Source: Domibacillus indicus (GTDB lineage Bacteria; Bacillota; Bacilli; Bacillales; Domibacillaceae). Taken from it: a stretch of 64,000 nt of DNA. The notes beneath the pieces are model-generated. The model searched no databases, was not told the DNA's origin, and saw only the letters and a list, made by a program, of their open reading frames with translations. Made by a program: the position numbers and the translations under genes. Numbering within the stretch: position 1 is the stretch's first letter; every line of letters starts with the position of its first letter. Where the stretch lies: positions 186,001 to 250,000 of the forward strand of contig NZ_JAMBOO010000004.1 in NCBI RefSeq assembly GCF_023715895.1. Reading direction: 5' to 3'. Shown here one piece after another: positions 29,210 to 45,704 of this stretch.

Positions 29210-29238
29210 TTGACGAAAAGAAGAGAAGGTTATATGCT
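29210..29238 (+). promoter_or_regulatory. Sigma-A-type promoter of the aco-like operon
   Basis: TTGACG (29210-29215), 17-bp spacer, TATGCT (29233-29238). There is no -24/-12 sigma-54 element, unlike B. subtilis acoABCL. Confidence 0.65.
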
Positions 29239-29240
29239 AT

Positions 29241-29276
29241 TTACAAATGTAACACATACGAACAAAAGTAAAAGGG
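29241..29276 (+). promoter_or_regulatory. Putative SorC-type operator, copy 1 (aco-like operon)
   Basis: A 36-bp element begins 2 bp after the -10 box and ends 10 bp before the first start codon. It holds a direct repeat, ACAAATGTAA (29243-29252) and ACAAAAGTAA (29262-29271), 19 bp apart. 32 of 36 positions are identical to 43625-43660, which sits at the same distances from its own -10 box and start codon. Two SorC regulators are encoded just after this operon. Confidence 0.6.
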
Positions 29277-29286
29277 AGGAACAATC

Positions 29287-30270
29287 ATGGTAACCAAATT
29301 AAACCTGCCCACTTCGATCACGGATGAAAAACTAAGAGACTTATACAAAGAAATGTGGATGATCCGTTATTTTGACGAGAAAGTAGACCAGTTTTTTGCG
29401 AAGGGGCTTATTCATGGAACGACGCACCTTTGTGTCGGACAGGAAGCATCAGCGGCTGGCTCGATCGCTGTACTCGAGCCTCGGGACAAAATTGTCTCTA
29501 CACACCGGGGTCACGGGCACTGTATTTCCAAAGAAGGCGATGTTAATAAAATGATGGCTGAGCTGTTCGGTCGTGAAACCGGTTACTGTAAAGGAAAAGG
29601 CGGCTCGATGCACATTGCAGACGTAGAAAAAGGCAACTTGGGTGCAAACGGGATCGTAGGCGGCGGCATTCCGCTTGCAGTTGGAGCAGCCCTGACATCC
29701 AAAATGAAAAATGAAGACTATGTAGTGCTTTGTTTCTTTGGAGACGGGGCGTCCAATGAAGGAAGTTTCCATGAATCGGTCAACCTTGCGGCTATTTGGG
29801 ATTTGCCGGTTGTGTTTATTTGTGAAAATAACCAGTACGGCATGTCGGGCCCGGTCAAAGACATGACCCGCGTTGAACATATTGCAGACCGCGCGAAAGC
29901 ATACGGAATTCCGGGAGAGATTGTAGACGGCTGTGACATGATCGACATTATGAACAGCGTAGACAACGCTGTGCGCCGGGCGCGTGAAGGCGGCGGGCCG
30001 ACGTTGATTGAAATGAAAACATACCGCTGGAAAGGCCACTCAAAAAGCGATGCGAAAAAATACCGTACACGTGAGGAAGAAAATGAATGGAGAGCGAAGG
30101 ACGGCATTAAGCGGTTTAAGGAAGCGCTGATTACCTCAGGTGTTTTAACAGAAGAAGAAGCGAAAGCCTTGCAGGAAGAAGCCAATCAGGAAATTGAAGA
30201 AGCGGTGCGATTTGCGGAAGCGAGTCCAGAACCGTCCATTGATACTTTAGAAGAAGACGTATACGCGTAA
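29287..30270 (+). CDS. acoA: Acetoin-type 2-oxo-acid dehydrogenase complex E1 alpha
   Basis: A 327-residue thiamine-diphosphate enzyme subunit. The ThDP/Mg motif [20 protein letters not shown] starts near residue 154, and [32 protein letters not shown] and [14 protein letters not shown] are conserved in AcoA and related E1 alphas. With AcoB it cleaves acetoin (or decarboxylates a branched or C3 2-oxo acid) and passes the acyl group to E2. Family resemblance to AcoA is strongest, but its neighbours are polyol genes, so the true substrate is open. First gene of acoA-B-C-L-sorC. Confidence 0.88.
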
Positions 30271-30290
30271 AAACAGGAGGGGTGGAGACC

Positions 30291-31298
30291 ATGACAACAG
30301 CTACGCCAGCAACAGGAAGAGAAATTACGTATCTAGAAGCCGTTCGGGAAGCCATGAGCCAGGAAATGCGCCAAAACAGCGATGTATTTATTCTTGGAGA
30401 AGACATAGGCGTATACGGCGGCGCGTTCGGTGTAACGCGCGGCATGATTGAAGAATTCGGTCCGGAGCGCGTGCGCAATACGCCGATTTCAGAAGCAGCA
30501 ATTTCTGGTGCAGCGGTCGGGGCGGCTTTGACAGGGATGCGTCCGATTTTAGAACTGCAATTCTCGGACTTTATTACAATTGCCATGGACCAGATGGTCA
30601 ACCAGGCCGCCAAAACACGTTATATGTTTGGCGGTAAAGGAAAAGTGCCAATGGTGCTTCGCACACCGGCTGGGTCTGGAACAGGCGCGGCTGCCCAGCA
30701 CTCGCAAAGCTTAGAAGCGTGGATGGCGCACATTCCAGGATTGAAAGTGGTTCAGCCTTCTACAGCCTACGATGTAAAAGGACTTTTAAAGGCAGCGATG
30801 GATGACGACAATCCGGTTGTGTTCTATGAACATAAGTTACTATATAGAACATCCGGTCATGTGCCGGAAGAACAATACTCTATTCCGCTCGGAAAAGCTG
30901 ATGTAAAGCGGGAAGGAACAGACGTAACGATTGTGGCAACAGCCATTATGGTGCATAAAGCGCTCGAAGCAGCCGCAGAGCTTGAAAAAGAAGGCATTAG
31001 CGTTGAAGTTATCGATCCGCGCACGATCGTGCCGCTGGACGAAGAAACGATTATTGAGTCTGTCAAGAAAACGGGGCGTCTCATTGTAGTACATGAAGCG
31101 GTAAAGCGCGGCGGCATCGGCGGAGAAATCGCCAGTATGATTGCGGAAAGTGAAGCATTTGACTATCTGGATGCGCCGATCAAGCGCCTGGGCGGATTGG
31201 CTGTGCCGATTCCGTACAATCCGACACTTGAAAAAGCGGCGATTCCTCAGGTACCGGATATTATTGCAGCAGTAAAAGAAACGGTGAAAAACAAGTAA
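30291..31298 (+). CDS. acoB: Acetoin-type dehydrogenase complex E1 beta
   Basis: A 335-residue transketolase-like subunit pairing with AcoA. Visible blocks: [39 protein letters not shown] (binds ThDP aminopyrimidine through the Glu), [22 protein letters not shown] and the C-terminal domain with [16 protein letters not shown] start at ATG 30291, eight bases after AGGAGGGG; an in-frame GTG at 30282 overlaps that site. It follows acoA by 20 bp and precedes the E2 gene by 15 bp. Confidence 0.9.
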
Positions 31299-31313
31299 GA
31301 AGGAGGGAGAACG

Positions 31314-32645
31314 ATGGCTAAAGAAATTTTTATGCCAAAGCTGAGCAGCACGATGGAAACAGGAACCCTCCTTCAATGGTTTAAGGAAGAGGGAGACAGC
31401 GTCGAGATTGGCGAGCCGCTTTTTGAAATTATGACGGACAAAATCAATATTGAAGTAGAGTCATATGATGAAGGCGTTTTATTAAAGAAGTACTTTGGAG
31501 AAGACGACCAGGTGCCGGTCAATCATGTGATCGGTTATATTGGAACCGAAGGGGATGACGTGCCACAAGAAGCGCCAGGGGTATCCGGTGCTGAAACAGA
31601 AGAAGCTGCTCCAACAGAAAATCCAGAGCCGCAGCTTGTTGCAGTGGGAAGTGCAGAAACAGTAATCACGGACGAAAAGCCGCGGGCTACACCGGCCGCT
31701 CGGCATCTTGCCCGGACAGAAGGAATCGAGCTTCGTGAGGTACAGGGAAGCGGCCCGAACGGACGCGTGCATAAAAAAGACGTAACCGCTCACGCAGAGG
31801 GCAGTCCGGCCGAGGCGAAAGCAACACCGCTTGCCCGCAAGGTTGCGGCAGGAGAAGGTGTCGATTTGTCCACTGTGCAGGGAAGCGGCGCCAATGGCAA
31901 AGTCGTGAAGCAGGATGTGATTTCCGCCAAACGCACAACAGCGCCTGCTGCGGATACATCGACGCGCAAAAAAATGTCGGGTATGCGTAAAGTGATCGCT
32001 GAACGTATGGTACAAAGCAAGCAGACAGCACCTCACGTCACGATGACGAGCGAGATTGATATGACAAAAGTAAAAGAACTGCGTGCATCGCTTCTGCCGG
32101 TTGTGGAAAAGCAGACGGGCTTCCGCTTGTCATACACAGAAATTTTAATGAAAGCAACAGCCGCAGCTCTAGCACGGCATCCAGAAATCAACGTATCGCT
32201 TGAAGGCGATGAAATCGTCCAGCACGGCCACGTTCACCTTGGCCTTGCCGTAGCGGTGGCGGACGGCTTAATGGTGCCGGTCATTAAAGATGTGCTCGCT
32301 AAGGGGCTGGCGGAGCTGACACAGGATGCAAAAGAAATCAGCCAGCGGGCGCGTGAAAATAAGCTGCTCCCTGATCAAATGAAAGGGTCCACGTTTACGA
32401 TCAGCAATGTTGGTATGTATGCCGTTGATATGTTTACGCCGGTCATTAATCAGCCGGAAAGCGCCATCTTAGGCGTAGGACGGATGCAGGACAAGCCAGT
32501 CGCGGTAAACGGAGCGCTTGAAATCCGGCCAATGATGACACTCAGCTTGTCATTTGACCACCGTGTGATTGACGGGGCACCGGCAGCCGCCTTTTTAACG
32601 GAGCTGAAAGACATTTTAGAAAATCCATATGAGCTGCTTGTATAA
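31314..32645 (+). CDS. acoC: Dihydrolipoyl acyltransferase E2 with tandem subunit-binding domains
   Basis: A 443-residue E2 core protein. The lipoyl domain is 1-78, with the lipoylated Lys43 in MTDKINIEVES. Two peripheral subunit-binding domains follow in tandem, about 125-160 (ATPAARHLARTEGI...GSGPNGRVHKKDV) and 169-205 (ATPLARKVAAGEGV...GSGANGKVVKQDV). The acyltransferase domain ~215-443 has catalytic His416 and Asp420 in DHRVIDG. Most bacterial E2 proteins have one such binding domain, so the duplication is noteworthy. It transfers the acyl group made by AcoAB to CoA. Confidence 0.9.
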   Translation: MAKEIFMPKLSSTMETGTLLQWFKEEGDSVEIGEPLFEIMTDKINIEVESYDEGVLLKKYFGEDDQVPVNHVIGYIGTEGDDVPQEAPGVSGAETEEAAPTENPEPQLVAVGSAETVITDEKPRATPAARHLARTEGIELREVQGSGPNGRVHKKDVTAHAEGSPAEAKATPLARKVAAGEGVDLSTVQGSGANGKVVKQDVISAKRTTAPAADTSTRKKMSGMRKVIAERMVQSKQTAPHVTMTSEIDMTKVKELRASLLPVVEKQTGFRLSYTEILMKATAAALARHPEINVSLEGDEIVQHGHVHLGLAVAVADGLMVPVIKDVLAKGLAELTQDAKEISQRARENKLLPDQMKGSTFTISNVGMYAVDMFTPVINQPESAILGVGRMQDKPVAVNGALEIRPMMTLSLSFDHRVIDGAPAAAFLTELKDILENPYELLV

Positions 32646-32657
32646 GGAGTGTAACTG

Positions 32658-34043
32658 ATGACATCATACGATATTGTCGTTGTAGGAGGCGGACCGGGGG
32701 GGTATGTCGCGGCGCTTCATGCAGCGGAGCTTGGCAAAAGGACAGCATTAGTAGAACCAGATTTTTTAGGCGGCACATGCTTGAATCGCGGCTGTATTCC
32801 GTCTAAAACGCTGCTCAAGCATGCAGAAATCATAGAATCGATCGAAAAAGCAAAGAACTGGGGTATTGAAACCGGGGAAATGACGCTTTCGTTCGATAAA
32901 ATGAAAAAGCGGAAAAATGACGTGATTGAACGGCTGCGCGGAGGCATTGCGTTTTTGCTGAAACAGGGCAAAATCGATGTTTATAACGGCTTTGGCTCTG
33001 TTAAGGAAGGCGGGCGTGTAGCGGTCAAAACGGAATCCGGTGAAGAAACGATCCAGGCGGCGAAAGTGATCGTCGCCACCGGTTCAACACCGGCTGTGCC
33101 GCCGATTCCCGGCCTTGACTTAGTCCGCTTTGATACGAGTGACACGATTTTTGATATTCCAGAGATTCCAAAGTCCGTCGTCATTATCGGCGGAGGGGTG
33201 ATTGGTGTAGAATTTGCCTGCATCTTCGCTTCTCTCAAGTCAAAGGTCACGATCGTGGAAGCAGCGGATCGAATTGTACCGACAGAGGATGCAGAAGCAG
33301 CCAAGCTGTTAACGAAAGCGCTGAAGAAAAAAGGCGTCGCGGTTCAAACAAAAGCGAAAGTGCAGTCGGTACGGGAAGAAAACGGGATCAAAATCGTCAC
33401 CTGTGTGGATGCGAAAGAAAAAGAGTTTGAGGTGGAAGCTGATACACTGCTTGTCAGCACAGGAAGACGGCCGAATGTATCTGCAGCCGGTGAGCTGAAC
33501 CTGGACATGAACGGGCCGTTTATCGCTGTAAACGAGCGAATGGAAACGAGCAGTCCTAACGTTTACGCGGTCGGCGATGTAATCGGCGGCTGGCAGCTGG
33601 CCCACGCGGCAAGCGCGGAAGGAGTCGTGGCGGCAAACAATGCAGCCGGCGTCCCGGATGTAATCGACTACAAAGTGATGCCGCGCTGTATTTATACACT
33701 GCCGGAAATTGCGGGTGTTGGCTTAACAGAAGACGAAGCAAAAGCGCAGGGGATAGACGTACGGGTTGAGAAATTTGATTTTGCCGGAAGCGGCAAAGCG
33801 CTGGCAGCCGGCGAGCCGGAAGGATTTACGAAGATCATTTACGAAGCGAAGTACGGTGAAATCATCGGCGTGGTGATGGCCGGCCCGCATGTAACGGAAA
33901 TGATCTCTGAGGCCTCTGCCTTTATGTATTTAGAAGGCACAGTGGATGAAGCAGCCAAAATGATTCATCCGCACCCAACGATCTCGGAAACATTTTTTGA
34001 AGCAGCGGTTCACGCGGTCAATAAGCTGAAGAAGCAGGCATAA
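32658..34043 (+). CDS. acoL: Dihydrolipoyl dehydrogenase (E3)
   Basis: A 461-residue flavoprotein that reoxidises the E2 lipoyl group with NAD+. FAD-binding GGGPGGYVAALHAAELG opens the protein; redox-active Cys41 and Cys46 are in GGTCLNRGCIPSK; the NAD-binding GGGVIGVEFA and the second FAD motif NVYAVGDVIGGWQLAHAAS follow; the catalytic His-Glu pair is in HPHPTISE near the C-terminus. Normal length. It lies 12 bp behind acoC, and 20 bp before the SorC gene, so it belongs to the same transcript. Confidence 0.93.
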   Translation: MTSYDIVVVGGGPGGYVAALHAAELGKRTALVEPDFLGGTCLNRGCIPSKTLLKHAEIIESIEKAKNWGIETGEMTLSFDKMKKRKNDVIERLRGGIAFLLKQGKIDVYNGFGSVKEGGRVAVKTESGEETIQAAKVIVATGSTPAVPPIPGLDLVRFDTSDTIFDIPEIPKSVVIIGGGVIGVEFACIFASLKSKVTIVEAADRIVPTEDAEAAKLLTKALKKKGVAVQTKAKVQSVREENGIKIVTCVDAKEKEFEVEADTLLVSTGRRPNVSAAGELNLDMNGPFIAVNERMETSSPNVYAVGDVIGGWQLAHAASAEGVVAANNAAGVPDVIDYKVMPRCIYTLPEIAGVGLTEDEAKAQGIDVRVEKFDFAGSGKALAAGEPEGFTKIIYEAKYGEIIGVVMAGPHVTEMISEASAFMYLEGTVDEAAKMIHPHPTISETFFEAAVHAVNKLKKQA

Positions 34044-34063
34044 CCAAAAAAGGAGGCATGAAC

Positions 34064-35005
34064 ATGGGAGGGGACGAACAAAAGCTGATGGTGAAAACCG
34101 CTTCGCTTTACTACCACGATGAATGGACACAGGCGCAAATTTCCAAGCAAATCGGCATGTCCCGTCCCATTGTCTCCCGGCTGCTTCAGCGGGCAAAGGA
34201 TGAGGGAATTGTCGAAGTGTTTATTAAGGATGAAACGGTTCACACAGTTGCCTTGGAACAGCGGCTTGAAGCGGTATACGGCCTTGACGAAGCAGTCGTC
34301 GTACCTCAAAGCCGGGCGCAGGGCCATTCTATGAAAAGTGCTGTTGCAGCAGCCGGTGCGTACTATGCCGCTAAAAAAACCAGGAATGTGAATCGTCTCG
34401 GTATTTCCTGGGGAACCACCGTGGCGGAGCTCGTAAAGCATTTTCCGTTTGATAAGCGTCCGGATTTGCACATTGTCCCGCTTGAAGGCGGAATGGGAAG
34501 AGCATCAATCGATATTCACGCGAATCACCTGGCTTATGAGCTGGCGAAAAAAAGCGGCGCCTCCTGTTCGTATTTATATGCGCCGGCGATTGTGGATTCA
34601 GAAGAAATGAAAGATCACTTTATGAAGATGGCTGACATTAAAAGTGTACTTCATGAAGGAGCCAGTGTGGAAATGGCGATTATCGGCGTAGGCAATCCGC
34701 ACAAAGATTCGACGCTTGAGAAAGTAGGCTACCTTCGTACAGAAGAAGCGGAATCTCTTAAAGAAGCAGGAGCAGCGGGTGATGTTGGATTCCGTTTTTT
34801 TAATGACCACGGCTCCGCCGTTGATCACCCTTTTAACAACAGAGTGGTCGGCATTCCGCTTGAGCAGCTTAAACAAATTCCATCCGTCATGGCAGTGGCA
34901 GATGGAACGAATAAACAAAGAAGCATGAAGGGTCTTCTCGCAAGCGGAATCGTCAACATATTGGTCGTTGATGAAGGTTTGGCCATGACGCTTCTGAACA
35001 ATTGA
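34064..35005 (+). CDS. SorC-family sugar-binding transcriptional regulator 1
   Basis: A 313-residue regulator. The N-terminal helix-turn-helix (QAQISKQIGMSRPIVSRLLQ, ~24-43) is followed by the SorC effector domain (~60-310; LGISWGTTVAEL, PLEGGMG, IIGVGNPHKDSTL), which binds phosphorylated sugars in the family. It is last in the aco-like operon, where AcoR would sit in B. subtilis. ATG 34064 lies seven bases after GGAGG; ATG 34058 is too close. It is a close paralogue of the next gene, with nearly the same recognition helix, and probably binds the element at 29241 and 43625. Confidence 0.85.
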   Translation: MGGDEQKLMVKTASLYYHDEWTQAQISKQIGMSRPIVSRLLQRAKDEGIVEVFIKDETVHTVALEQRLEAVYGLDEAVVVPQSRAQGHSMKSAVAAAGAYYAAKKTRNVNRLGISWGTTVAELVKHFPFDKRPDLHIVPLEGGMGRASIDIHANHLAYELAKKSGASCSYLYAPAIVDSEEMKDHFMKMADIKSVLHEGASVEMAIIGVGNPHKDSTLEKVGYLRTEEAESLKEAGAAGDVGFRFFNDHGSAVDHPFNNRVVGIPLEQLKQIPSVMAVADGTNKQRSMKGLLASGIVNILVVDEGLAMTLLNN

Positions 35006-35023
35006 TTGAGGCGCTTACAAAAG

Positions 35024-35053
35024 AACACATCTGAAACAAGGTGTGTTTTTTTC
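35024..35053 (+). terminator. Terminator of the aco-like operon
   Basis: AACACATC pairs with GGTGTGTT (one G-U), eight-base loop, then a T-rich run. Confidence 0.75.
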
Positions 35054-35094
35054 TTCCTTTTCTCAAAGAAAACGCTCTCATTTTTGCATGTAAT

Positions 35095-35128
35095 TGTTAT
35101 AATAAAATAGAAAGAGACGTATTACGTC
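35095..35128 (+). promoter_or_regulatory. Extended -10 promoter and palindrome upstream of the second SorC gene
   Basis: TGTTATAAT (35095-35103) is an extended -10 element; the -35 region is poor. GACGTATTACGTC (35116-35128) is a perfect palindrome around a central T lying just downstream of the expected start site, a likely operator for autoregulation. Confidence 0.5.
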
Positions 35129-35172
35129 CTGTCAAAACATTATCTATGACATAAACAAAAAGAGGGGTTTCA

Positions 35173-36117
35173 ATGTTAAGCTGGGAAGAGCGCCGTCAAC
35201 TTGTGAAAGTGGCGAATTTATATTATACGGAAGGCTGGACACAGCAGCAGATTGCCAAAAAAATCGGGGTATCCCGTCCAGTGATTTCTAAAATGCTGCA
35301 GCGGGCAAAAGACGCCGGCATTGTAGAAGTGTACATAAAAGACGAAAGTGTGCATACGGTAGAGCTGGAGAAAGGATTGGAAGAAAAGTTCGGTCTTCAA
35401 GATACGGTCGTGGTTCCATCGGTCGGTTTTACACCAGATATGGTACGCCGTGCGGTCGGGCAGGCCGCCGCTCATTACGTGTCGCGTCATTTAAAAACAG
35501 ATGTGGAGCGGCTCGGCATTTCCTGGGGGACGACACTGTCTGAATTTGTAAAGGAATATCCATTTGAACGGCGGGAGAATATGAATATTGTGCCGCTTGT
35601 CGGCGGCATGGGAACAAAAAGTGTAGAGATTCATGCCAACCAGCTGGCGTACGAGCTGGCGAAAAAAATGAACGGCACCTGCTCATACTTGTACGCACCT
35701 GCCATTGTAGAATCAGTCGAATTAACCGAGCGGCTCGTACAAATGCAGGATATTGCCCAGGTGCTCGAAGAAGGAAAAAATGTAGAGGTAGCGATTGTCG
35801 GAATCGGGAACCCGCATAAAGGATCTACGATGAAAGACATCGGCTATATTCATGAAACAGATATCCAAAGCTTGAAAAAAGCAGGCGCCATCGGAGACAT
35901 CGGTTCCCGCTTTTTCGATCAGGATGGTGTCCCGATTGAACATGAATTAAACAAGCGGATTATCGGCCTTCGGCTGAGAGACTTAAAGAACATTCCGTAC
36001 GTGATCGGCATTGTCGAGGGAACCTACAAAGCGGAAAGTATCGAAGCGGCCTTGAAAGGCGGCTACGTACAAACGCTCATTACCGATGAACAAACCGCAT
36101 TAGCTCTTTTAAACTAA
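35173..36117 (+). CDS. SorC-family sugar-binding transcriptional regulator 2
   Basis: A 314-residue paralogue of the preceding regulator. The helix-turn-helix is QQQIAKKIGVSRPVISKMLQ; the recognition helix differs from regulator 1 only by conservative changes. The effector domain repeats the blocks LGISWGTTLSEF, PLVGGMG and IVGIGNPHKGSTM. It has its own promoter and terminator and sits between the aco-like operon and the galactitol-type PTS genes. GAGGGG precedes ATG 35173. Which sugar phosphate it senses is unknown; shared DNA recognition with regulator 1 is inference from the helix. Confidence 0.85.
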   Translation: MLSWEERRQLVKVANLYYTEGWTQQQIAKKIGVSRPVISKMLQRAKDAGIVEVYIKDESVHTVELEKGLEEKFGLQDTVVVPSVGFTPDMVRRAVGQAAAHYVSRHLKTDVERLGISWGTTLSEFVKEYPFERRENMNIVPLVGGMGTKSVEIHANQLAYELAKKMNGTCSYLYAPAIVESVELTERLVQMQDIAQVLEEGKNVEVAIVGIGNPHKGSTMKDIGYIHETDIQSLKKAGAIGDIGSRFFDQDGVPIEHELNKRIIGLRLRDLKNIPYVIGIVEGTYKAESIEAALKGGYVQTLITDEQTALALLN

Positions 36118-36133
36118 ATCATTGCTGTTTAAG

Positions 36134-36160
36134 CTGCCGGAGGTTTCTGGCAGTTTTTTC
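36134..36160 (+). terminator. Rho-independent terminator
   Basis: CTGCCGGA pairs with TCTGGCAG (one G-U), loop GGTT-type, followed by six T, 16 bp after the second SorC gene. Confidence 0.75.
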
Positions 36161-36212
36161 ATTTGTTTCGTTTCAGCACAATTGTGTACAAAGCGATGGA
36201 TAAAAACTGTGA

Positions 36213-36226
36213 TGAAAACGCATACA
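36213..36226 (+). promoter_or_regulatory. cre-like (CcpA) site upstream of the PRD regulator gene
   Basis: TGAAAACGCATACA matches the cre consensus TGWAANCGNTNWCA at all but one defined position (A for T at position 10). It lies 51 bp before the start codon, suggesting glucose repression of the galactitol-type PTS region. A second palindrome, CACAATTGTG, is at 36177-36186. Confidence 0.45.
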
Positions 36227-36276
36227 TTTTGAGGGAAAATCGTGATAGCATGTAATTAAGCAAGGAGGTCATATTG

Positions 36277-38382
36277 ATGTATCTGGACGAAAGAAGCAGC
36301 TTATTGTTAAAAGACCTCGTTTTCAATCCTCATGTTAAAAACAAGGATTTAGAGGAAAAGTACGGGCTGAGCCGGCGTCAGGTTGGTTACAGTATTAACA
36401 AAATTAACAGCTGGCTGACTTCAAATAATTTGCCTGTTATTGAAAGGGCAAAAAATGGATTTTTTATCATTCAAACAGAAGTCCGCTCTTACTTCAAAAT
36501 GGATCATCAAGCAGAGGCCGCCGGGCAGCCGTACATTTTTTCTGAGAATGAACGGGCAGAGCTCATCTTACTTATGATTTTAAGCAAAAGGGAGGAATTG
36601 TCGCTTATCCATTTTACGAGTGCTCTATGTGTAAGCAAGAATACCATTTTAAATGATTTGAAAATGGCTCAAACGCTGCTGCAGCCGCACGGTCTTGAAG
36701 TAGGTTACTCCCGGCAGAGCGGGTACGAAATGATCGGAAGTGAAATTCAAAAAAGAAAATTTCTGATTCATCTTGTGCAAAGAATACTTGAAAAAGAGCA
36801 TGGAGAATGGGCTCTTGAAAGTGTCAAAGAAATTCATAAACAAAGAAAAGTGGATATTCAGCAATGGCTTGAGCAAGTAGAACAGCAGCTGAATTTAACG
36901 TTTACCGACGAAAAAATGAAGCAGCTTCCTTACGTCCTTGCGATTACACTGGAGAGAATTGAGCAATTTGAACGAATTGATGCGGCATTTTGTATTCATT
37001 ACGAGGAACTGTCAGATACGAAAGAATATCAGGCGGTCGAGCTGCTTTTGCAAGGTGATGAAACCATTCCAAGGGAAGAGCGGCTGTTTATCGCCTTAAA
37101 TCTCCTGGCATCCAATGTTTCTTCCTATGAGGTCCTGACAGATACAGATCTTCCTGAGCTCGTAAAAGCAGTAGAAACCACCTTGCATTTGTTTGAAAAA
37201 AATGCCTGCATTGAGCTAAAGGAAAAAGAAAACTTAACCCGGCTTATTTTTATTCACATGAAGCCGGCTTATTACCGGATCAAGTATCATCTGACCACTT
37301 CTAACCAGTATGCCGAAAAAATCGATGCAGAATTTGGAGAACTTCATTTTTTAATTAAGCAGTCTATCGCGCCGTTAGAAGAACTGATTGGAGAGCCTAT
37401 TCCAGAAAGTGAGATCGTCTACTTAACGATGTTTATAGGGGGATGGCTCGAACGGCAGGGGGACCGGATCGACAGCAAAATACGGGCGGTCGTGGTTTGT
37501 CCAAACGGGTTGTCAGTTTCAAAGCTGATGAAACAAACACTTCAAACCATTTTTCCGGAGTTTTTATTTTGGGATTCTCTATCGATCAGGGAATTTCAGC
37601 AGTATACGCGCGAGTACGAATTGGTTTTTGCCCCGCATGTACTGCTGACGGATAAACCCCTGTTTATTGTAAAGCAGCTGCCGACGGAAGAAGAGAAAAT
37701 GCAGCTTAGGAAGCGGGTGATGCAGGAGTTATATGGATATGTGCCATCCGCCTTGAATGTGGAAGAAATTTTTTCAATTATTCACAAGCATGGCCAGATC
37801 AAAGACGAAAAAAAGCTGAAAAAAGAATTACAGACACTGCTCGAGGCGAAGCAGGCAGGGATTCAAACGCTGAAAAAACAGGAGCGGCTTGACTTGACCC
37901 ATTTTATCAACGAAAGCACGCTGACCATTGTCCCGTCTGTGTCCGATTGGAAAGAGGCCATCCGCCTGGCCGCAGCTCCGCTCGTTCAAGCCGGGAAAAT
38001 CGAGCCGGAATATACAGAAGCGATGATCAAAGAACACAACTACGAAAACCCTTATATGGTTTTGGGAAAACATGTCGCTATCCCTCATGCGAGCCCGGAA
38101 AAAGGCGTGCACGAAACAGCGATGGGCCTGCTGTGCGTCGAGGATGGTGTGCCATTTTCAGACCATTTTCATATTCATTTAGTGGTCGTGATTGCGGCAA
38201 AAGACAAAGAAAAGCATATTCGAGCATTGTTTCAGCTTTCACAGCTGGCGCTTGAGCACGAAGAAGTTCAGCGAATAGCAAAAGCAAAAAGCAAAGCGGA
38301 CGCTGCCGGGAGAATTAAAATGTATATAGAAAAGGGTGAGCAAAATGGACAGTCACATTACCTTAACGAAACAGCTGATTGA
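36277..38382 (+). CDS. BglG/MtlR-type PRD regulator with PTS EIIB and EIIA domains
   Basis: A 701-residue PTS-controlled regulator. Order: two N-terminal helix-turn-helix modules (~1-150), two PRDs (~170-400), an EIIB-like domain with Cys408 (AVVVCPNGLSVSKLM) and an EIIA-like domain with His604 (HVAIPHASPEKG). Such proteins activate PTS operons when their domains are phosphorylated appropriately by HPr and EII components; MtlR and LicR are models. The ATG at 36277 is eight bases after AAGGAGG. The gene overlaps the following EIIA gene by 38 bp, so it surely controls that galactitol-type system. Confidence 0.88.
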   Translation: MYLDERSSLLLKDLVFNPHVKNKDLEEKYGLSRRQVGYSINKINSWLTSNNLPVIERAKNGFFIIQTEVRSYFKMDHQAEAAGQPYIFSENERAELILLMILSKREELSLIHFTSALCVSKNTILNDLKMAQTLLQPHGLEVGYSRQSGYEMIGSEIQKRKFLIHLVQRILEKEHGEWALESVKEIHKQRKVDIQQWLEQVEQQLNLTFTDEKMKQLPYVLAITLERIEQFERIDAAFCIHYEELSDTKEYQAVELLLQGDETIPREERLFIALNLLASNVSSYEVLTDTDLPELVKAVETTLHLFEKNACIELKEKENLTRLIFIHMKPAYYRIKYHLTTSNQYAEKIDAEFGELHFLIKQSIAPLEELIGEPIPESEIVYLTMFIGGWLERQGDRIDSKIRAVVVCPNGLSVSKLMKQTLQTIFPEFLFWDSLSIREFQQYTREYELVFAPHVLLTDKPLFIVKQLPTEEEKMQLRKRVMQELYGYVPSALNVEEIFSIIHKHGQIKDEKKLKKELQTLLEAKQAGIQTLKKQERLDLTHFINESTLTIVPSVSDWKEAIRLAAAPLVQAGKIEPEYTEAMIKEHNYENPYMVLGKHVAIPHASPEKGVHETAMGLLCVEDGVPFSDHFHIHLVVVIAAKDKEKHIRALFQLSQLALEHEEVQRIAKAKSKADAAGRIKMYIEKGEQNGQSHYLNETAD

Positions 38383-38824
38383 ACTTCAAGCAAATCACCG
38401 CTCAAGCTCAGCTGTTATTGAGCACTTGTTTGAAAAACTGCATACACACCAGTATGTAAAAAAGTCTTTTTTAGAAGCCGTGTTGAAGAGGGAGGAAATC
38501 TACCCGACCGGATTGCCGCTTTCAAAAATGGGTGTGGCCATTCCGCACACGGACTCAGAGCATGTATTGAAGCCGGCTATCGCGGTCAGTGTCCTGCAAA
38601 ACCCGGTTGTGTTCAATATGATGGGCAGCCCGGACACACAAATTAGTGTCGATATTGTACTGATGCTGGCAATCTCTGATCCGAAAAAGCAGCTGGCCAT
38701 GCTGCAGCGGCTGATGAATGTTTTTCAGGATGAACAGGCGATGGAAGCCATTAAAAATGCCGAGGCAGAAGAAAAAATTGTCGAGCTGCTGAATAATAAA
38801 TTGCAGCTTATCGAAATAAAGTAA
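38345..38824 (+). CDS. gatA: PTS EIIA, galactitol/fructose-mannitol type
   Basis: A 159-residue phosphocarrier. The accepted phosphate goes on His68 in MGVAIPHTDSEHV. It passes phosphate from HPr to the EIIB at 40293. AAAGGG lies eight bases before ATG 38345, inside the end of the regulator gene. Order regulator-IIA-IIC-IIB is that of GatABC-like systems. The imported polyol is likely galactitol or a relative, but substrate choice within this family is hard to read from sequence. Confidence 0.85.
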   Translation: MDSHITLTKQLIELQANHRSSSAVIEHLFEKLHTHQYVKKSFLEAVLKREEIYPTGLPLSKMGVAIPHTDSEHVLKPAIAVSVLQNPVVFNMMGSPDTQISVDIVLMLAISDPKKQLAMLQRLMNVFQDEQAMEAIKNAEAEEKIVELLNNKLQLIEIK

Positions 38825-38866
38825 GATGAAAGCGCTTCAATCTCATATTAATCAGGGGGTGTAAAC

Positions 38867-40273
38867 ATGATTAAAGATGTTGTGGATTTTGTATTAGATT
38901 TAGGGCCATCCATTATGCTTCCCATTATTATGCTTGCGTTTGGACTTATTTTAAAACAGGGATTTAATAAGTCGTTCCGAGCGGCTTTAACCATCGGTAT
39001 CGGCTTCGTCGGAATTAATCTTGTGATTGGTCTGCTTATGGAAGCGCTCGGGCCTGCCACACAAGCCATGGTCAAATCATTAGGACTCAGCCTGGACATC
39101 CTGGATGTCGGCTGGCCGATCGGCGCGGCTATTTCATTCGGTACACCGGTGGCCCCGCTTATGATTCCGCTTATTCTCATATTGAATGTAATTATGCTTT
39201 CGTTAAACTGGACGAAAACATTGAATGTCGATATTTGGAATTTCTGGCACCTTATTTTCGCTGCTTCTATTGCGTACTATGCGTACGACAATATGCTGCT
39301 CGCTATTGTAGTCGGCCTGGTTGTTTCCGCGATTACCTTGAAACTGGCGGACTGGACGGCTCCGACAATCGAGCATCACTTCGGGTTGAAGGGTGTATCG
39401 ATGGCCCATTCCGAAACCGTTAACTTTGCACCACTCATGTATGCATCTAACCGAGTCATTGACAAAATACCTGGACTGAATAAGCTGCATGCCGATCCTG
39501 AAACCTTGAAAAAACGCTTTGGTATTTTCGGCGAACCGCTTGTTATGGGGCTTGTGTTAGGGATGTTAATTGGCCTTCTTGGCGGATATGACGCGAAAGG
39601 CGTTCTGACGCTGGGCGTGCAAATGTCAGCTGTCCTCATTTTAATGCCGCGAATGGTTGCCCTGCTGATGGAAGGGCTTATCCCGATCTCGGAAGGCGCG
39701 CGCGATTATATTAACCGGAAATTTCCCGGGAAAAACGTATACATTGGGCTTGATACAGCCATCGTCATCGGGCACCCGGCTAATATGGCTGTAGCGCTTT
39801 TAATGGTTCCGATCACAATCCTGCTGGCGGTGATTCTGCCTTACAACAACATGCTTCCATTTGCTGATTTATCCGTGCTTCCATTTACCGTTGTCTGGGC
39901 AGTTGCTGCTGCTAGAGGCAATATTATTCGCGGATTGATTAACAGTATCTTTACGCTGATGATTGTGTTCTTTTTGGCAACAAACCTGGCAGATCTTGCA
40001 ACGACGATGGGACGTGCAGTCGGCTTTGCTTTCCCTGAAGGGGCCACATTAATTTCAGGGATTGACCTTGGATCACACGTTCTTCCATGGATTATCCTTC
40101 GCCTGCTTGATCCGTCTAATCCTTATTTCTTTGCCGCAATCGGCGCAGCCGTTGTGTACGCATTGCTTTGGTACTGGGTACGCAACGATATCCGCAAGCA
40201 GTACGCCAAGGAAATGGGCCTTGATGCACAGCAGGAAAATGGAGCAGATAAAAAGCTTGAAAACATTAATTAA
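38867..40273 (+). CDS. gatC: PTS EIIC, galactitol type
   Basis: A 468-residue permease with about ten to twelve membrane helices, length normal for GatC (~450). Family blocks include LKQGFNKSFRAALTIGIGFVGINLVIG near the start (residues ~29-55), FGTPVAPLMIPLIL and NVYIGLDTAIVIGHPANMAV. It carries the polyol across the membrane while EIIB phosphorylates it. GGGGGTGTAAAC precedes the ATG. The short gap before it (38825-38866) has TGAAAGCGCTTCA, a cre-like palindrome missing one base. Confidence 0.9.
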   Translation: MIKDVVDFVLDLGPSIMLPIIMLAFGLILKQGFNKSFRAALTIGIGFVGINLVIGLLMEALGPATQAMVKSLGLSLDILDVGWPIGAAISFGTPVAPLMIPLILILNVIMLSLNWTKTLNVDIWNFWHLIFAASIAYYAYDNMLLAIVVGLVVSAITLKLADWTAPTIEHHFGLKGVSMAHSETVNFAPLMYASNRVIDKIPGLNKLHADPETLKKRFGIFGEPLVMGLVLGMLIGLLGGYDAKGVLTLGVQMSAVLILMPRMVALLMEGLIPISEGARDYINRKFPGKNVYIGLDTAIVIGHPANMAVALLMVPITILLAVILPYNNMLPFADLSVLPFTVVWAVAAARGNIIRGLINSIFTLMIVFFLATNLADLATTMGRAVGFAFPEGATLISGIDLGSHVLPWIILRLLDPSNPYFFAAIGAAVVYALLWYWVRNDIRKQYAKEMGLDAQQENGADKKLENIN

Positions 40274-40292
40274 TTATTAGGGGGAATAAAGA

Positions 40293-40571
40293 ATGGCAAA
40301 AAAAATATTGGTTTCATGCGGAACAGCAGTCGCTACGTCAACGGTTGTCGCTAAAAAAGTAGAAGAGACATTGAAAAGCAAAGGGTATGACGTCGTTGTC
40401 GAGCAATGTAAAGCATCAGAGGTTCCTTATAAAGCAGCAGGTGCCGATGTGATTGTCACGACTACGCCAATCAGCGATGCGGGAAGCACGCCTGTTATTC
40501 AAACCATTTCCTTTCTAACAGGTGTTGGAATCGACACAGATATCGAAAAAATTATTCAGTACTTGGGATAA
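40293..40571 (+). CDS. gatB: PTS EIIB, galactitol type
   Basis: A 92-residue protein with the phosphorylated Cys9 in ILVSCGTAVATSTVV, the P-loop of the GatB family. It receives phosphate from EIIA and gives it to the sugar bound by EIIC. GGGGGAATAAAG precedes the ATG, 19 bp behind gatC. A small hairpin follows it. Confidence 0.92.
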   Translation: MAKKILVSCGTAVATSTVVAKKVEETLKSKGYDVVVEQCKASEVPYKAAGADVIVTTTPISDAGSTPVIQTISFLTGVGIDTDIEKIIQYLG

Positions 40572-40578
40572 AAAGGCG

Positions 40579-40602
40579 GAGGGGAGACTCTCCCCTCTTC
40601 TT
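40579..40602 (+). terminator. GC-rich hairpin between gatB and downstream genes
   Basis: GAGGGGAG pairs with CTCCCCTC over a three-base loop, followed by TTCTT. Poor T-run, so it may act as an mRNA-stability element or partial terminator within the operon. Confidence 0.45.
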
Positions 40603-40627
40603 ATGATGCGATGGGGAGGTGTTTTCG

Positions 40628-41062
40628 ATGTCTATTTACACGTACAGCAAATCATCAAAAAACATGACAATCTTTTTGCCGGTATTGGTTATGGCCGGCC
40701 TCTTCGCCTGGGCCGTCTATGGATTGCTGTCAGAAAACAGGTTTCCGTTAAATGAGCTGATTCTATATACAATGCCGGTGCTTCTTTTGTCTTCTTTTAT
40801 CGGGCTTCACAATCCATCGAGTGTAAAAGTGACCGACCAGTCGATTACCTTCAGCGGCTTTGGCCGAAGCCACACGTACACATGGGAAGAAGCGGGGGTT
40901 ATTTTTGTCCGGAAGTATGAGTATGTAGGAAAGACGTTTATCCGGCTTGGCAAGCCGCGCATTTTAGGCGGCAGATACTGGATTACACATGAAATGAATG
41001 ACTATAAGGAGCTCCTCAGCTTTTTAGAACAGAAAAGCCAAAAGGACGTGAAAAGAGCATGA
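40628..41062 (+). CDS. Uncharacterised membrane protein with PH-like C-terminal domain
   Basis: A 144-residue protein of no family I can name. Residues ~15-33 and ~45-60 are hydrophobic helices. The rest (PSSVKVTDQSITFSGFGRSHTYTWEEAG and following, residues ~67-135) has the strand pattern of a bacterial PH-like (bPH/YdbT) domain. GGGGAGG is eight bases before ATG 40628. Its stop overlaps the start of the dehydrogenase gene as ATGA, so it is co-translated with polyol metabolism genes, which is unusual for such proteins. Confidence 0.7.
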   Translation: MSIYTYSKSSKNMTIFLPVLVMAGLFAWAVYGLLSENRFPLNELILYTMPVLLLSSFIGLHNPSSVKVTDQSITFSGFGRSHTYTWEEAGVIFVRKYEYVGKTFIRLGKPRILGGRYWITHEMNDYKELLSFLEQKSQKDVKRA

Positions 41063-42087
41063 AGGCATCCGTTTTCTATGATAAACAAACCATTCAATAC
41101 GAACAGCGGGCCATTCCGGAAATAGGACCTGGAGAAGTGCTGTTAAAAATGGAAGTGTGCGGACTGTGCGGCACGGATATTCACAAGGTGCTTGACGAAT
41201 CCGTACCAGAATCAAGCATTCTCGGCCATGAAGTATCCGGTACGATTGTAAAAACAGGACAAGGGGTTTCGAACTTTAAAGAAGGAGACAGGGTATTCGT
41301 GGCTCATCATGTACCTTGTTTTACATGCCATTACTGCCAGCGGAAAATGTATACCCTGTGCAGGCAGTTTAAAGAAACCAACCTGGATCCAGGAGGCTTC
41401 TCCGAATACATTCGTGTACCAGAGCTTCATGTTAAGCACACGATGGGAAAACTGCCAGACAGCGTCACCTTTGAAGAAGGAGCACTTGTCGAACCCGTTG
41501 CCTGCTGCCTGCACGGATTTGAATCGATTCAAGTCAAGCCGGGAGACTCGCTTCTTATTTTAGGAGCCGGCCAAATTGGCTGTCTGCAGGTTCAAATTGC
41601 CCGTCATCTTTTAGCCGGACAAATCATGGTCAGTGATATTAATCCCTATCGGCTTGAACAGTCTCTTCAGTTTGGTGCAGATCATGCGGTTAACAGTAAA
41701 GAAGAAGACCTGCTCGATACGGTGATGCGTTTGACGAACGGAAACGGAGCAGACCACGTGATTATCTCTGCAGGGATAGGCAGCCTGCTTCCTCAAGCAA
41801 TGGAATGCGTGCGAAGAGGCGGCACGATTCTTGTTTTTGCTCCGTTTAAAAAGGAGTTTGTACAAATACCAGCTGAACGATTTTTTAATGATGAAATTAA
41901 AATCATCGGCTCCTATTCATCCAACCCTTATAACTATGAAAGTGCGCTTCAAATGATTCAACAAGGGATCATTCAAGCAGATAAAATGGTGACCCATCGT
42001 TTTCCGCTTTCACAGCTGCATGAAGCGATCCGCTGTGCACACGATGCGAATGAAAAAGTGCTCAAGGTACTCATTACCCCTTCATAA
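41059..42087 (+). CDS. Zn-dependent medium-chain dehydrogenase, galactitol-1-phosphate 5-dehydrogenase-like
   Basis: A 342-residue polyol dehydrogenase. Catalytic zinc ligands are Cys37 (GLCGTD) and His57-Glu58 (GHEVSG); the structural zinc uses Cys87, 90, 93 and 101 (PCFTCHYC...LC); NAD-binding is LGAGQIGCLQ. In GatD-like enzymes this oxidises the imported polyol phosphate to a ketose phosphate. Its place after the galactitol-type PTS supports that role; a sorbitol- or threonine-type dehydrogenase is the alternative. Translation is coupled to the upstream membrane protein by an ATGA overlap. Confidence 0.85.
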   Translation: MKASVFYDKQTIQYEQRAIPEIGPGEVLLKMEVCGLCGTDIHKVLDESVPESSILGHEVSGTIVKTGQGVSNFKEGDRVFVAHHVPCFTCHYCQRKMYTLCRQFKETNLDPGGFSEYIRVPELHVKHTMGKLPDSVTFEEGALVEPVACCLHGFESIQVKPGDSLLILGAGQIGCLQVQIARHLLAGQIMVSDINPYRLEQSLQFGADHAVNSKEEDLLDTVMRLTNGNGADHVIISAGIGSLLPQAMECVRRGGTILVFAPFKKEFVQIPAERFFNDEIKIIGSYSSNPYNYESALQMIQQGIIQADKMVTHRFPLSQLHEAIRCAHDANEKVLKVLITPS

Positions 42088-42098
42088 GGAGAAGTGTT

Positions 42099-42770
42099 AT
42101 GAATATTACATTGCAGGAAAAAACGGTACTGCTGATTGGGGGAATCAGTCCAATCAATCAAGCTCTTTGTGAAGCACTGGCTGAAGCAGGTGCCGAAGTA
42201 TGGCATCAAGTGTTTCAAGAAAAAGAAGCCGTGATGAGCCCCTCCAGCAAAGTTATTGCAGCAGATGTTCGCCAGCCGAACAAAGTGAAAAAATTGGCAG
42301 AATGTATTTTGGAAAAAGATAAAAAGATTGATATTTTAATTCATTCTTTTCCAGCCCCTCCAGCCCGTTCTCTTTTGGAGACGGATCCAGAAGAATGGCT
42401 GTCTTTGTTCCAGTACCACGTGGATGTTCCTTTTCTGACGTGCCGGGAGATCATGCCTCGCATGGCAAAAGCACACGGCGGCATTGTAATCAATATTTCA
42501 TCATCCGCAGCGGTGACAGGTGAAGGGGGTCCTCCTTTTGCCGCGATAAGCAGCACGTTACAATCGATGACGCGCGGACTGGCTCGTGAGTATAAAGAGC
42601 AAAACGTACGTGTCAGCGGCATAGCACCTGCTTTTTTGGCAAAAGGCGAAAAAGAAAATGAGCAGGTCATTTCTTCAACAGTTGCCATGACGCTGCTGCT
42701 TTGTTCAGACTATGGAGGCTATATAAGTGGCGAATCGATTCTCGTTGATGGAGGGAAAAGCGTTGGATAA
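42099..42770 (+). CDS. SDR-fold protein lacking the catalytic Tyr and Lys
   Basis: A 223-residue short-chain dehydrogenase homologue. The fold is clear: NISSSAAVTG after the third strand and GYISGESILVDGGKSVG at the end. But the nucleotide-binding glycines are reduced to IGGISPINQ, and the catalytic YxxxK position reads FAAIS (in GPPFAAISSTLQS), so Tyr and Lys are both absent. It probably does not reduce or oxidise anything alone and may be a partner of the intact SDR that follows, whose start overlaps this stop by 8 bp. Function otherwise unknown. Confidence 0.8.
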   Translation: MNITLQEKTVLLIGGISPINQALCEALAEAGAEVWHQVFQEKEAVMSPSSKVIAADVRQPNKVKKLAECILEKDKKIDILIHSFPAPPARSLLETDPEEWLSLFQYHVDVPFLTCREIMPRMAKAHGGIVINISSSAAVTGEGGPPFAAISSTLQSMTRGLAREYKEQNVRVSGIAPAFLAKGEKENEQVISSTVAMTLLLCSDYGGYISGESILVDGGKSVG

Positions 42771-43491
42771 TGTACTCATCATTGGAGGTGCTGCAGGCAT
42801 TGGACGTCAGATTGCTTTAGACTTTGCCGAAAAAGGATGCTGTACAGCTGTGGCGGATATTGACCAGTCAGCTTTAACAGACATGACCCAGCAAAATCAA
42901 ATATATGGATTTAAAGCAGATGTCAGCTCATGGGACAGCGTCTCGGAAATGATCGAACAGGTTATCGATAAGATAGGAAGCATTGATACGCTTGTGTTTT
43001 CGGCAGGCATAACGAAAAAAGGGGAGCTGGAAGAAACAAACTGGGCTTTATGGGAAAAAACAATGGCCGTTAATTTACATGGTCTGTTTTTCAGCATCAA
43101 AGCCGCCGCGCCGCACATGATAGGCAGAAAAAAAGGGAAAATCGTTATTATCGGCTCTGGCTCTGCTATTACAGGATCAGGAGGAGGCATTCAATATTAC
43201 GCCTCAAAAGGCGGTGCATTTGGCCTTATGAGATCGCTTGTGAAAGAGCTTGGAGAACACCAAATTAATATTAATGTGATCGCCCCGAGAGTCATTGAAT
43301 CACAAATGCTTGATTCACTTTATCCAACGGACGAGCTAAAACAAACGGTCAGGAATAAAATCCCAATCGGGAGACTGGGCAGGCCGTCCGATATTTCTGA
43401 ACTGGTGCAGTATCTTAGTTCAGCTCAAGCGGATTATATTCATGGCCAAATCTTTCTTCTTGATGGCGGAAGAACGTATCAAGGAAACTAA
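42763..43491 (+). CDS. SDR-family NAD(P)-dependent oxidoreductase
   Basis: A 242-residue classical short-chain dehydrogenase. Cofactor motif GGAAGIGRQIA, active-site Ser in VIIGSGSAITGSGGG, Tyr and Lys in YYASKGGAFGL and the C-terminal GQIFLLDGG are intact. TTG 42763 is used, with GGAGGG seven bases upstream inside the preceding gene; a longer reading from 42727 has no ribosome binding site. It is probably a polyol or ketose(-phosphate) oxidoreductase of the galactitol-type pathway, possibly paired with the degenerate SDR upstream. Confidence 0.83.
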   Translation: MDNVLIIGGAAGIGRQIALDFAEKGCCTAVADIDQSALTDMTQQNQIYGFKADVSSWDSVSEMIEQVIDKIGSIDTLVFSAGITKKGELEETNWALWEKTMAVNLHGLFFSIKAAAPHMIGRKKGKIVIIGSGSAITGSGGGIQYYASKGGAFGLMRSLVKELGEHQININVIAPRVIESQMLDSLYPTDELKQTVRNKIPIGRLGRPSDISELVQYLSSAQADYIHGQIFLLDGGRTYQGN

Positions 43492-43493
43492 TA

Positions 43494-43556
43494 AAAAGGA
43501 AACACGCTATTTTTGCAACGGTTCAACCCTGTTGCAAAAATAGCGTGTTTCCTTTT
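43494..43556. terminator. Terminator with a 26-bp perfect inverted repeat
   Basis: The stretch 43494-43519 (core ACACGCTATTTTTGCAAC) is exactly complementary to 43531-43556, with an 11-base loop (GGTTCAACCCT). It ends in TTTT and closes the galactitol-type operon. The stem is much longer than termination needs. TGAAAAATTTTTCA, another palindrome, follows at 43560-43573. Confidence 0.8.
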
Positions 43557-43592
43557 GTCTGAAAAATTTTTCATAAAATCTGTGGATTACTG

Positions 43593-43622
43593 TTGACTTT
43601 AATTCATAGGATGGACTACAAT
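43593..43622 (+). promoter_or_regulatory. Sigma-A-type promoter of the glucitol-type operon
   Basis: TTGACT (43593-43598), 18-bp spacer, TACAAT (43617-43622). Confidence 0.65.
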
Positions 43623-43624
43623 CA

Positions 43625-43660
43625 TTACAAAGGTAACATATAAGAACAAATGTAAAAGGG
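43625..43660 (+). promoter_or_regulatory. Putative SorC-type operator, copy 2 (glucitol-type operon)
   Basis: A 36-bp element with direct repeats ACAAAGGTAA (43627-43636) and ACAAATGTAA (43646-43655), 19 bp apart. It begins 2 bp after the -10 box and ends 10 bp before the gutM start, exactly as in copy 1 at 29241-29276, with 32 of 36 identical bases. Confidence 0.6.
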
Positions 43661-45666: not shown

Positions 45667-45704
45667 TAGGAGGGGTCACTTTGAGCGTACTTGGAGGCGT
45701 AAAA

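Follow-up and report, generated by a model that had tools for sequence, protein, structure and literature searches.

A shared, probably SorC-type operator joins a dehydrogenase operon to a DXR-II-bearing phosphotransferase operon in Domibacillus indicus and may mark a methylerythritol catabolic regulon

Why should an operon for an acetoin dehydrogenase-like complex and an operon for polyol uptake, more than 14 kb apart, begin with the same 36-bp element? The question is raised by a stretch of 64,000 nucleotides of Domibacillus indicus (contig NZ_JAMBOO010000004.1, positions 186,001 to 250,000 of the forward strand; hereafter the window). Here one copy of the element, at 29241-29276, precedes the E1-E2-E3 dehydrogenase genes, and the other, at 43625-43660, precedes genes of a glucitol-type phosphotransferase system (PTS), the last of which encodes DRL, an enzyme of the DXR-II type of 1-deoxy-D-xylulose 5-phosphate (DXP) reductoisomerase (Table 1). 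A preliminary description of the window had claimed that this pair is hard to explain by chance, that one or both of the SorC regulators encoded between the copies probably control both operons, and that polyol uptake would thereby be tied to a ketone or 2-oxo-acid dehydrogenase.

The two elements are indeed identical at 32 of 36 bases, along one diagonal with an offset of 14384, and a scan of the whole window yielded no second same-strand pair of 36-mers, at least 36 bp apart, with 32 or more identities. None of 20 random windows from an order-1 Markov model held any 36-mer pair at 32/36 or better, and the core pattern, allowing up to three mismatches, occurs twice in the window against a mean of 0.00 after shuffling. 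Both elements contain ACAAAnGTAA twice, with starts 19 bp apart, as had been described. Each copy sits inside an imperfect palindrome (TTACAAATGTAA; GAACAAATGTAA), so that the element consists of two tandem palindromic half-operators and not of direct repeats alone. The common geometry also holds at both operons: the element starts 2 bp after a −10-like hexamer (TATGCT and TACAAT), which follows a TTGAC −35 motif at a spacing of 17 bp in promoter 1 and 18 bp in promoter 2, and ends 10 bp before the ATG (29287 and 43671). These promoters look sigma-70-like; the Bacillus aco operon is under AcoR/sigma-54 control.

We then consider the whole genome, a 5.08-Mb draft. The pattern TTACAAANGTAACN6GAACAAANGTAA, with up to three mismatches, has exactly four matches there, all at 0 mismatches, and its reversed control has none. 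Shuffles, reversed control, window scan and Markov windows together rule out a chance or repeat-element origin of the pair. Two of the four sites precede E1-E2-E3 dehydrogenase operons, and the other two precede PTS operons of the glucitol type. The two sites outside the window lie on another contig (C115), before a second E1 alpha (E1a) gene, 93% identical, and before a second SrlA-SrlE-SrlB-DRL operon, with a SorC gene near each of these operons. The genome thus has two copies of the regulon, and in them four operators and four SorC genes. The earlier picture of two sites and two regulators falls short of the genome as a whole.

The element is also conserved in relatives. An exact 29-bp core, searched in one genome per species across 84,980 species, was found at 46 sites in 45 stretches, where about 0.1 would be expected by chance at equal base frequencies. 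All belong to Bacillus-like genera (Bacillus, Virgibacillus, Oceanobacillus, Domibacillus, Brevibacillus, Paenibacillus and others), and all 46 sites are upstream of, and on the same strand as, a cluster gene, at 60 bp or less in 40 cases and at more than 60 bp in six. The first labelled gene after the site encodes E1a (41 sites), GutM (two), GatA (two) or a short-chain dehydrogenase/reductase (SDR) followed by E1a (one). Among 397 genomes of the order, 32 carry the operator at up to two mismatches (43 sites in total; control matches, 0). In 49 distinct aligned sites the upstream consensus is TTGAC-17-TATGAT, and in 41 of them the top-scoring promoter leaves 4 bp between its −10 and ACAAA. The operator also offers a handle for finding the regulon in genomes.

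As a test independent of the site, the same 397 genomes were searched with the window E1a, taking at least 69% identity as the mark of an orthologue. Thirty-six genomes have one, including 31 of the 32 that match the 31-bp operator pattern. The operator at up to two mismatches is present in 31 of these 36 and in 1 of the 361 others (p=9e-40; the genomes are related and were treated as independent, so that this and the following p-values are only indicative). The remaining five (G070, G212, G247, G268 and G292) have a weaker site, with 3-5 mismatches, before E1a or the gut operon, and no case was seen among the 36 in which operons and regulators are kept and the element is lost. The 69% line dropped six weaker matches of 52-64% identity; two of these genomes (G126, G268) are still among the 36 through a closer E1a copy, and in the other four (G191, G226, G227, G309) the thresholds applied gave no operator and no DRL. 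A count by script puts a site with no more than four mismatches near the called start of 27 of 33 E1a genes, against 2 of 375 control genes. Three loci where the called start lies upstream of the site (L093, L102, L106), added by eye, and three with the site before the gut operon (L098, L157, L158) bring the total to 33/33, which is no independent test because 28 of the 33 were chosen for holding a site; the other five (L154-L158) came via DRL and do count as independent. At one locus (L107) the E1a gene is present though missed by the gene caller.

Which protein reads the operator? The two paralogous SorC regulators of the window do lie between the operons and do have, as claimed, very similar recognition helices (MSRPIVSRLLQ in SorC1, VSRPVISKMLQ in SorC2), and both carry the PF04198 sugar-binding effector domain (222 and 265 bits, cut-off 27). 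A solved SorC-family tetramer, B. subtilis DeoR, has a two-part operator, ATTGAACAAAATTTCAAT-TACCAA-TTTACATATGTTCAA, and contacts bases through R34 and R39 (PMC11229326). The DeoR helix, ISRPTVSRLLQ, is near-identical to that of SorC1, which keeps the equivalents of both residues, and SorC2 has K at the R39 position. The letters GAACAAA and TTTACAnATGT of the DeoR operator (ATTGAACAAAATTTCAATTACCAATTTACATATGTTCAA; PMC11229326) are common to both systems, the half-sites of the window element (TTACAAATGTAA and GAACAAATGTAAA, 19 bp apart) are of the same kinds as those of DeoR, and the two-part layout resembles that of SorC/DeoR tetramer operators of about 40 bp. As half-site letters, layout and recognition helix all resemble DeoR, SorC/DeoR-type repressors probably read the element, which by its letters is a further member of the known DeoR-type kind. 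The systems differ in that half-operator spacing is 19 bp in the window and about 22 in DeoR, both halves are more symmetric in the window, and the DeoR operator lies at −60 to −21 (PMC11229326), unlike the window operators just after the −10. DeoR governs nucleoside use (dra-nupC-pdp); a sugar-phosphate effector domain is common to it and the window proteins. For both window proteins the nearest solved SorC effector domain is that of Listeria Lmo0547 (PDB 4R9N), matched over this domain alone; the neighbours of the Lmo0547 gene are probably a glucitol-type PTS and a DXR-II gene. A CopY/BlaI-type operator, which TTACAnnTGTAA resembles, was set aside because a DeoR-type SorC protein agrees with both the letters of the half-sites and the genes near by; no search aimed at CopY/BlaI was made.

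A natural control comes from gut operons beside a separate SorC clade B (helix SRSLISKYL), a set of 13 rows with 100/100 support in a 58-row tree. The site is absent from 9/9 of these operons, which show at least 9 mismatches. The script had listed nine type-B GutM genes; from these we dropped L111 (contig end, wrongly typed, 0 mismatches), and we added L166 (12 mismatches), whose PTS score puts it in type A although the SorC gene next to it belongs to clade B. Being at background there, the element is tied to the other SorC proteins. Binding by another regulator, such as the PRD/Mga/EIIA protein encoded between the two operons (36274-38382), or action in an RNA leader, since the site is mostly downstream of the likely transcription start and so largely transcribed, is very improbable given the DeoR-like letters, the missing site beside clade B and several site-bearing loci (for example L103, L105 and L117) with a SorC gene but no PRD protein in the stretch examined. 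These comparisons (relatives, clade-B control, likeness to DeoR) give good support to SorC proteins as common regulators of the two operons, and operator and regulators very probably form one regulon. In SorC trees the Domibacillus proteins fall into two supported sets of four, one of the E1-E3 side (SorC1 and its C115 homologue) and one of the gut side (SorC2 and its C115 homologue); since each set includes a C115 homologue, the split between regulators looks older than that between regulon copies. The sites show a slight difference of the same kind in Domibacillus genomes, reading ACAAATGTAA..ACAAAAGTAA before E1a (5/5) and ACAAA[AG]GTAA..ACAAATGTAA before gut operons (4/4). Partial specialisation of SorC1 and SorC2, or mixed tetramers, are possible.

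What could such a regulon be for? The clue is DRL, which is 43% identical over the aligned part to Brucella DXR-II and keeps 7/7 residues named as important for that enzyme, K191, K193, T229, E174, F178, R320 and Y322 (PMC3847144; numbering checked on the 3UPY chain). DXR-II converts DXP to 2-C-methyl-D-erythritol 4-phosphate (MEP). The Brucella abortus enzyme (3UPL, 3UPY) is described as biosynthetic; the window DRL, for its part, ends a PTS operon in a genome that also has an ordinary Dxr (540 bits) and IspF. At a threshold of 190 bits or more, DRL is found in 35 of the 36 E1a genomes of the order against 5 of 361 others (p=1e-43), and in 30 of the 32 operator genomes against 10 of 365 others (p=4e-34). 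Five of the latter ten are the weaker-site genomes, and the other five have a second or distant DRL type with no E1-E3 genes in the stretch examined. DRL falls into two types, each with PTS and SorC types of its own, at phmmer scores of at least 560 and of about 370-440, and all 20 type-A genes examined (at least 560) lie within 20 kb of E1-E3 genes. Isoprenoid synthesis does not need DRL in the order, as 36 of its 40 DRL genomes have Dxr above cut-off and the other four (G168, G217, G304, G381) have neither Dxr nor IspF but HMG-CoA reductase, so that their DRL can hardly feed the MEP pathway. In three of the four, both the operator and the E1-E3 cluster are present.

The association extends beyond the order. 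Across 398 phylum genomes, DRL reaches E 1e-45 or better in 37, and we examined 20 of 39 DRL places outside the order, picked down the score list and skipping close kin and contig ends. SrlE was found in 15 of these neighbourhoods and E1 beta in 11. One of them (L182) reads SorC-GutM-SrlE-SrlB-DRL-E1a-E1b-E2-E3-lipoyl synthase-(108 aa)-PTS enzyme I, and would unite uptake, isomerase, complex, cofactor and phosphoryl donor.

We consider it somewhat probable that the regulon is a catabolic pathway for 2-C-methyl-D-erythritol (ME). A SorC/DeoR-type tetramer (dimer of dimers) would occupy the two palindromic half-operators, cover the likely transcription start just after the −10, and block the E1-E2-E3-SorC1 and GutM-SrlA-SrlE-SrlB-DRL operons until released by a phosphorylated intermediate. 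The glucitol-type PTS would import ME as its 4-phosphate, MEP; DRL, working in reverse, would turn MEP into DXP, one step of isoprenoid synthesis run backwards; and the E1-E2-E3 complex would act on DXP (CH3-CO-CHOH-R) in the reaction DXP + CoA + NAD+ -> acetyl-CoA + glyceraldehyde 3-phosphate + NADH. The galactitol-type PTS, Zn alcohol dehydrogenase and SDR proteins encoded between the operons could feed related methyl- or deoxy-polyols into the same point. Each enzyme of both operons has a task in such a pathway. We infer SorC binding, the effector, the direction of DRL and the substrates of E1 and PTS from site conservation, regulon composition, gene families, co-occurrence and the kept DRL residues. 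The tie between polyol uptake and dehydrogenase that had been proposed survives as an operator link, but a DXR-II gene at the end of the PTS operon changes its meaning, and glucitol is an unlikely substrate of the gut-type PTS.

The chemistry is compatible with this proposal. Acetoin dehydrogenase converts CH3-CO-CHOH-CH3 to acetyl-CoA and acetaldehyde; DXP is CH3-CO-CHOH-CHOH-CH2-OP, and the same cleavage would give acetyl-CoA and glyceraldehyde 3-phosphate, two central metabolites. The reaction of ordinary Dxr is reversible. An E1 dependent on thiamine pyrophosphate (TPP) can make the bond in question: 1-deoxyxylulose is a product of pyruvate dehydrogenase (PDH) E1, and DXP arises in vivo in aceE mutants (PMC3424233).

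Several observations weigh against ME catabolism. Eleven DXR-II proteins are reported to be able to produce MEP, which is the biosynthetic direction (PMC3847144). DXP and MEP are always present to some extent in cells with an MEP pathway, so that such a compound could serve as effector only above a threshold. DRL is missing from two operator genomes, G173 and G245, and in G245 the site, perhaps there by chance, precedes genes without cluster match. Most cluster loci were selected because they hold the site, and the E1a search of the 397 genomes is the site-independent test. Of the 20 neighbourhoods outside the order, five have no SrlE (L188, L189, L190, L193, L199) and nine no E1 beta of this type; a XylB-like kinase is near DRL in L188 and L190, and a split transketolase in L189. 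Finally, among the 35 genomes with DRL outside the order, 15 have IspF without Dxr, and DRL is probably biosynthetic there, alone or additionally, which speaks against a purely catabolic reading of the whole DRL family. In these lineages (L182-L201) isoprenoid synthesis may have taken over a DRL that was once catabolic, or the reverse. The wider proposal, of ME catabolism widespread in Firmicutes through reverse DXR-II and acetoin-dehydrogenase-type cleavage of DXP, under one SorC operator in Bacillales, is about evenly balanced and tips only just to the positive side.

Among the alternatives, the one that survives best keeps operator and SorC control and changes the substrate to another branched or deoxy polyol, with DRL catalysing an analogous reductoisomerisation and the complex cleaving the resulting 1-deoxyketose phosphate. 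The two sets of DRL, PTS and SorC types, and the galactitol-type PTS and sugar dehydrogenases that recur beside the complex, suggest several related substrates. On the other hand, the residues kept by the window DRL include T229 and R320, named for their divergence from DLO1/DLO2 (PMC3847144), and DXP/MEP conversion is the function reported for DXR-II, so we hold this alternative to be unlikely. Less likely still is a reading in which DRL is incidental and the complex serves as an additional dehydrogenase for pyruvate or another 2-oxo acid, induced along with polyol uptake so that the resulting pyruvate can be processed. NCBIfam does name E1 alpha and E1 beta pyruvate dehydrogenase, and mitochondrial PDH provides the nearest solved chains for E1, which also counts against DXP as substrate. 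Nevertheless, the genome already has an E1 alpha above the PDH cut-off (479 bits, contig C104) and two more E1 alpha. In a tree with very long branches and open forks all three separate from most of those in the clusters, and E1a and DRL occur together in nearly all E1a genomes of the order and again elsewhere in the phylum. That DRL is a back-up isoprenoid enzyme placed in a PTS operon by accident, as its published functional label and the 15 genomes with IspF but no Dxr might suggest, is hardly credible given the Dxr and HMG-CoA reductase of the order and a linkage to gut PTS and E1-E3 too regular for accident.

If ME catabolism is confirmed, it would explain why many Firmicutes have a second, unrelated DXP reductoisomerase and why some bacteria keep DXR-II without the rest of the MEP pathway. 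Plants and bacteria produce ME, and isoprene oxidation in air yields abundant 2-methyltetrols. DXR-II has been studied as an isoprenoid enzyme. According to a 2013 survey, some Firmicutes have both DXR types, two have DXR-II while all other genes of both isoprenoid pathways are missing, and the carriers share no distinguishing ecological trait except that animal pathogens are over-represented (PMC3847144). A catabolic role would account for this distribution. The main text of that paper contains 0 mentions of PTS, catabol- or reverse, and in the available part of PMC6529453 methyltetrols occur in the reference list only. We found no description of this regulon or of bacterial ME catabolism in open-licence literature, among the matches listed, and both the regulon and a catabolic use of DXR-II appear undescribed so far.

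The gene content of the window is collected in Table 1. All of E1 alpha, E1 beta, E2 and E3 are in one operon, as expected for an acetoin dehydrogenase complex; layout and family are those of acetoin (aco) and pyruvate dehydrogenase complexes, but here the candidate complex sits among PTS, DRL and SorC genes. The nearest named match of E1 alpha is from Domibacillus sp. PGB-M46 (98%). As in the glucitol PTS (srlA-srlE-srlB with gutM), EIIC and EIIB score above NCBIfam cut-offs and GutM above its Pfam cut-off; EIIA (SrlB) and GutM fall under their NCBIfam cut-offs. The difference is that DRL replaces sorbitol-6-phosphate dehydrogenase, which is missing from the GutM-SrlA-SrlE-SrlB-DRL operon; two SDR genes lie upstream, before the terminator-like repeat. 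Pattern scans of the window found no separate operator for the galactitol-type branch.

Table 1 Features of the two operons and of the region between them (window positions)
Feature	Position	Strand	Basis
Promoter 1	29210..29238	+	−35 TTGACG 29210-29215, 17 bp, −10 TATGCT 29233-29238; read from sequence
Operator 1, two tandem palindromic half-operators, TTACAAATGTAAC..GAACAAAAGTAA	29241..29276	+	whole-window pair scan, pattern scans
E1 alpha, TPP-dependent dehydrogenase	29287..30270	+	TIGR03182 394.5 bits, cut-off 393.85
E1 beta	30282..31298	+	NF006667 416.5 bits, cut-off 321
E2 dihydrolipoyl acyltransferase	31314..32645	+	profile match
E3 dihydrolipoyl dehydrogenase	32658..34043	+	TIGR01350 541 bits, cut-off 408.8
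SorC1, SorC/DeoR-type regulator, 14 bp after E3	34058..35005	+	PF04198; nearest solved relatives Lmo0547, DeoR, SorC
SorC2, paralogue, groups with gut-side SorC of contig C115	35173..36117	+	profile matches, SorC trees
Galactitol-type branch: PRD/Mga/EIIA regulator, GatA, GatC, GatB, 147-aa protein, Zn alcohol dehydrogenase, two SDR proteins	36274..43491	+	profile matches
Terminator-like inverted repeat then short T run, between SDR gene and promoter 2	43494..43556	+	read from sequence
Promoter 2	43593..43622	+	−35 TTGACT 43593-43598, 18 bp, −10 TACAAT 43617-43622; read from sequence
Operator 2, TTACAAAGGTAAC..GAACAAATGTAA	43625..43660	+	whole-window pair scan, pattern scans
GutM	43671..44039	+	PF06923 97.1 bits, cut-off 25
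SrlA, glucitol-type EIIC	44074..44607	+	NF049923 248.6 bits, cut-off 150
SrlE, glucitol-type EIIB(C)	44629..45666	+	NF049924 497.6 bits, cut-off 400
SrlB, glucitol-type EIIA	45681..46079	+	TIGR00849 110.2 bits, below cut-off 189.55
DRL / DXR-II-type oxidoreductase (DXP reductoisomerase-like), final gut-operon gene, 2 bp after SrlB	46082..47371	+	PF21135 (DRL_cat) 232.9 bits, cut-off 27; PDB 3UPL/3UPY E=4.2e-107

Some further observations concern these and related loci. The 147-aa protein of the galactitol-type branch (40619-41062) has no family match, is kept beside galactitol-type PTS and alcohol dehydrogenase genes in other clusters, and is probably a small membrane protein, judging from a five-row alignment. 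The gut operon on C115 (locus L005, about 12.6-12.9 kb) has no gutM match, and a second operator-like stretch (TGAACAAATGACTATATTTGAACAAATGTAA) lies between its operator and srlA, which looks like a duplication of the leader. The second E1-E3-SorC operon (locus L006, C115 at about 23.4-26.9 kb) has as immediate neighbours two genes, of 888 and 272 aa, whose products resemble pyruvate phosphate dikinase and its regulator, as judged from their first residues alone. The same genome carries, at locus L166 (C66:61000-90000), a third set of gut PTS genes together with two additional second-type DRL genes and a SorC gene of clade B, with no operator. In genome G213, two weaker sites at about 8.9 and 13.0 kb of locus L103 (3 and 2 mismatches) precede other genes, one of them just upstream of two SDR genes, which suggests a wider regulon in that genome.

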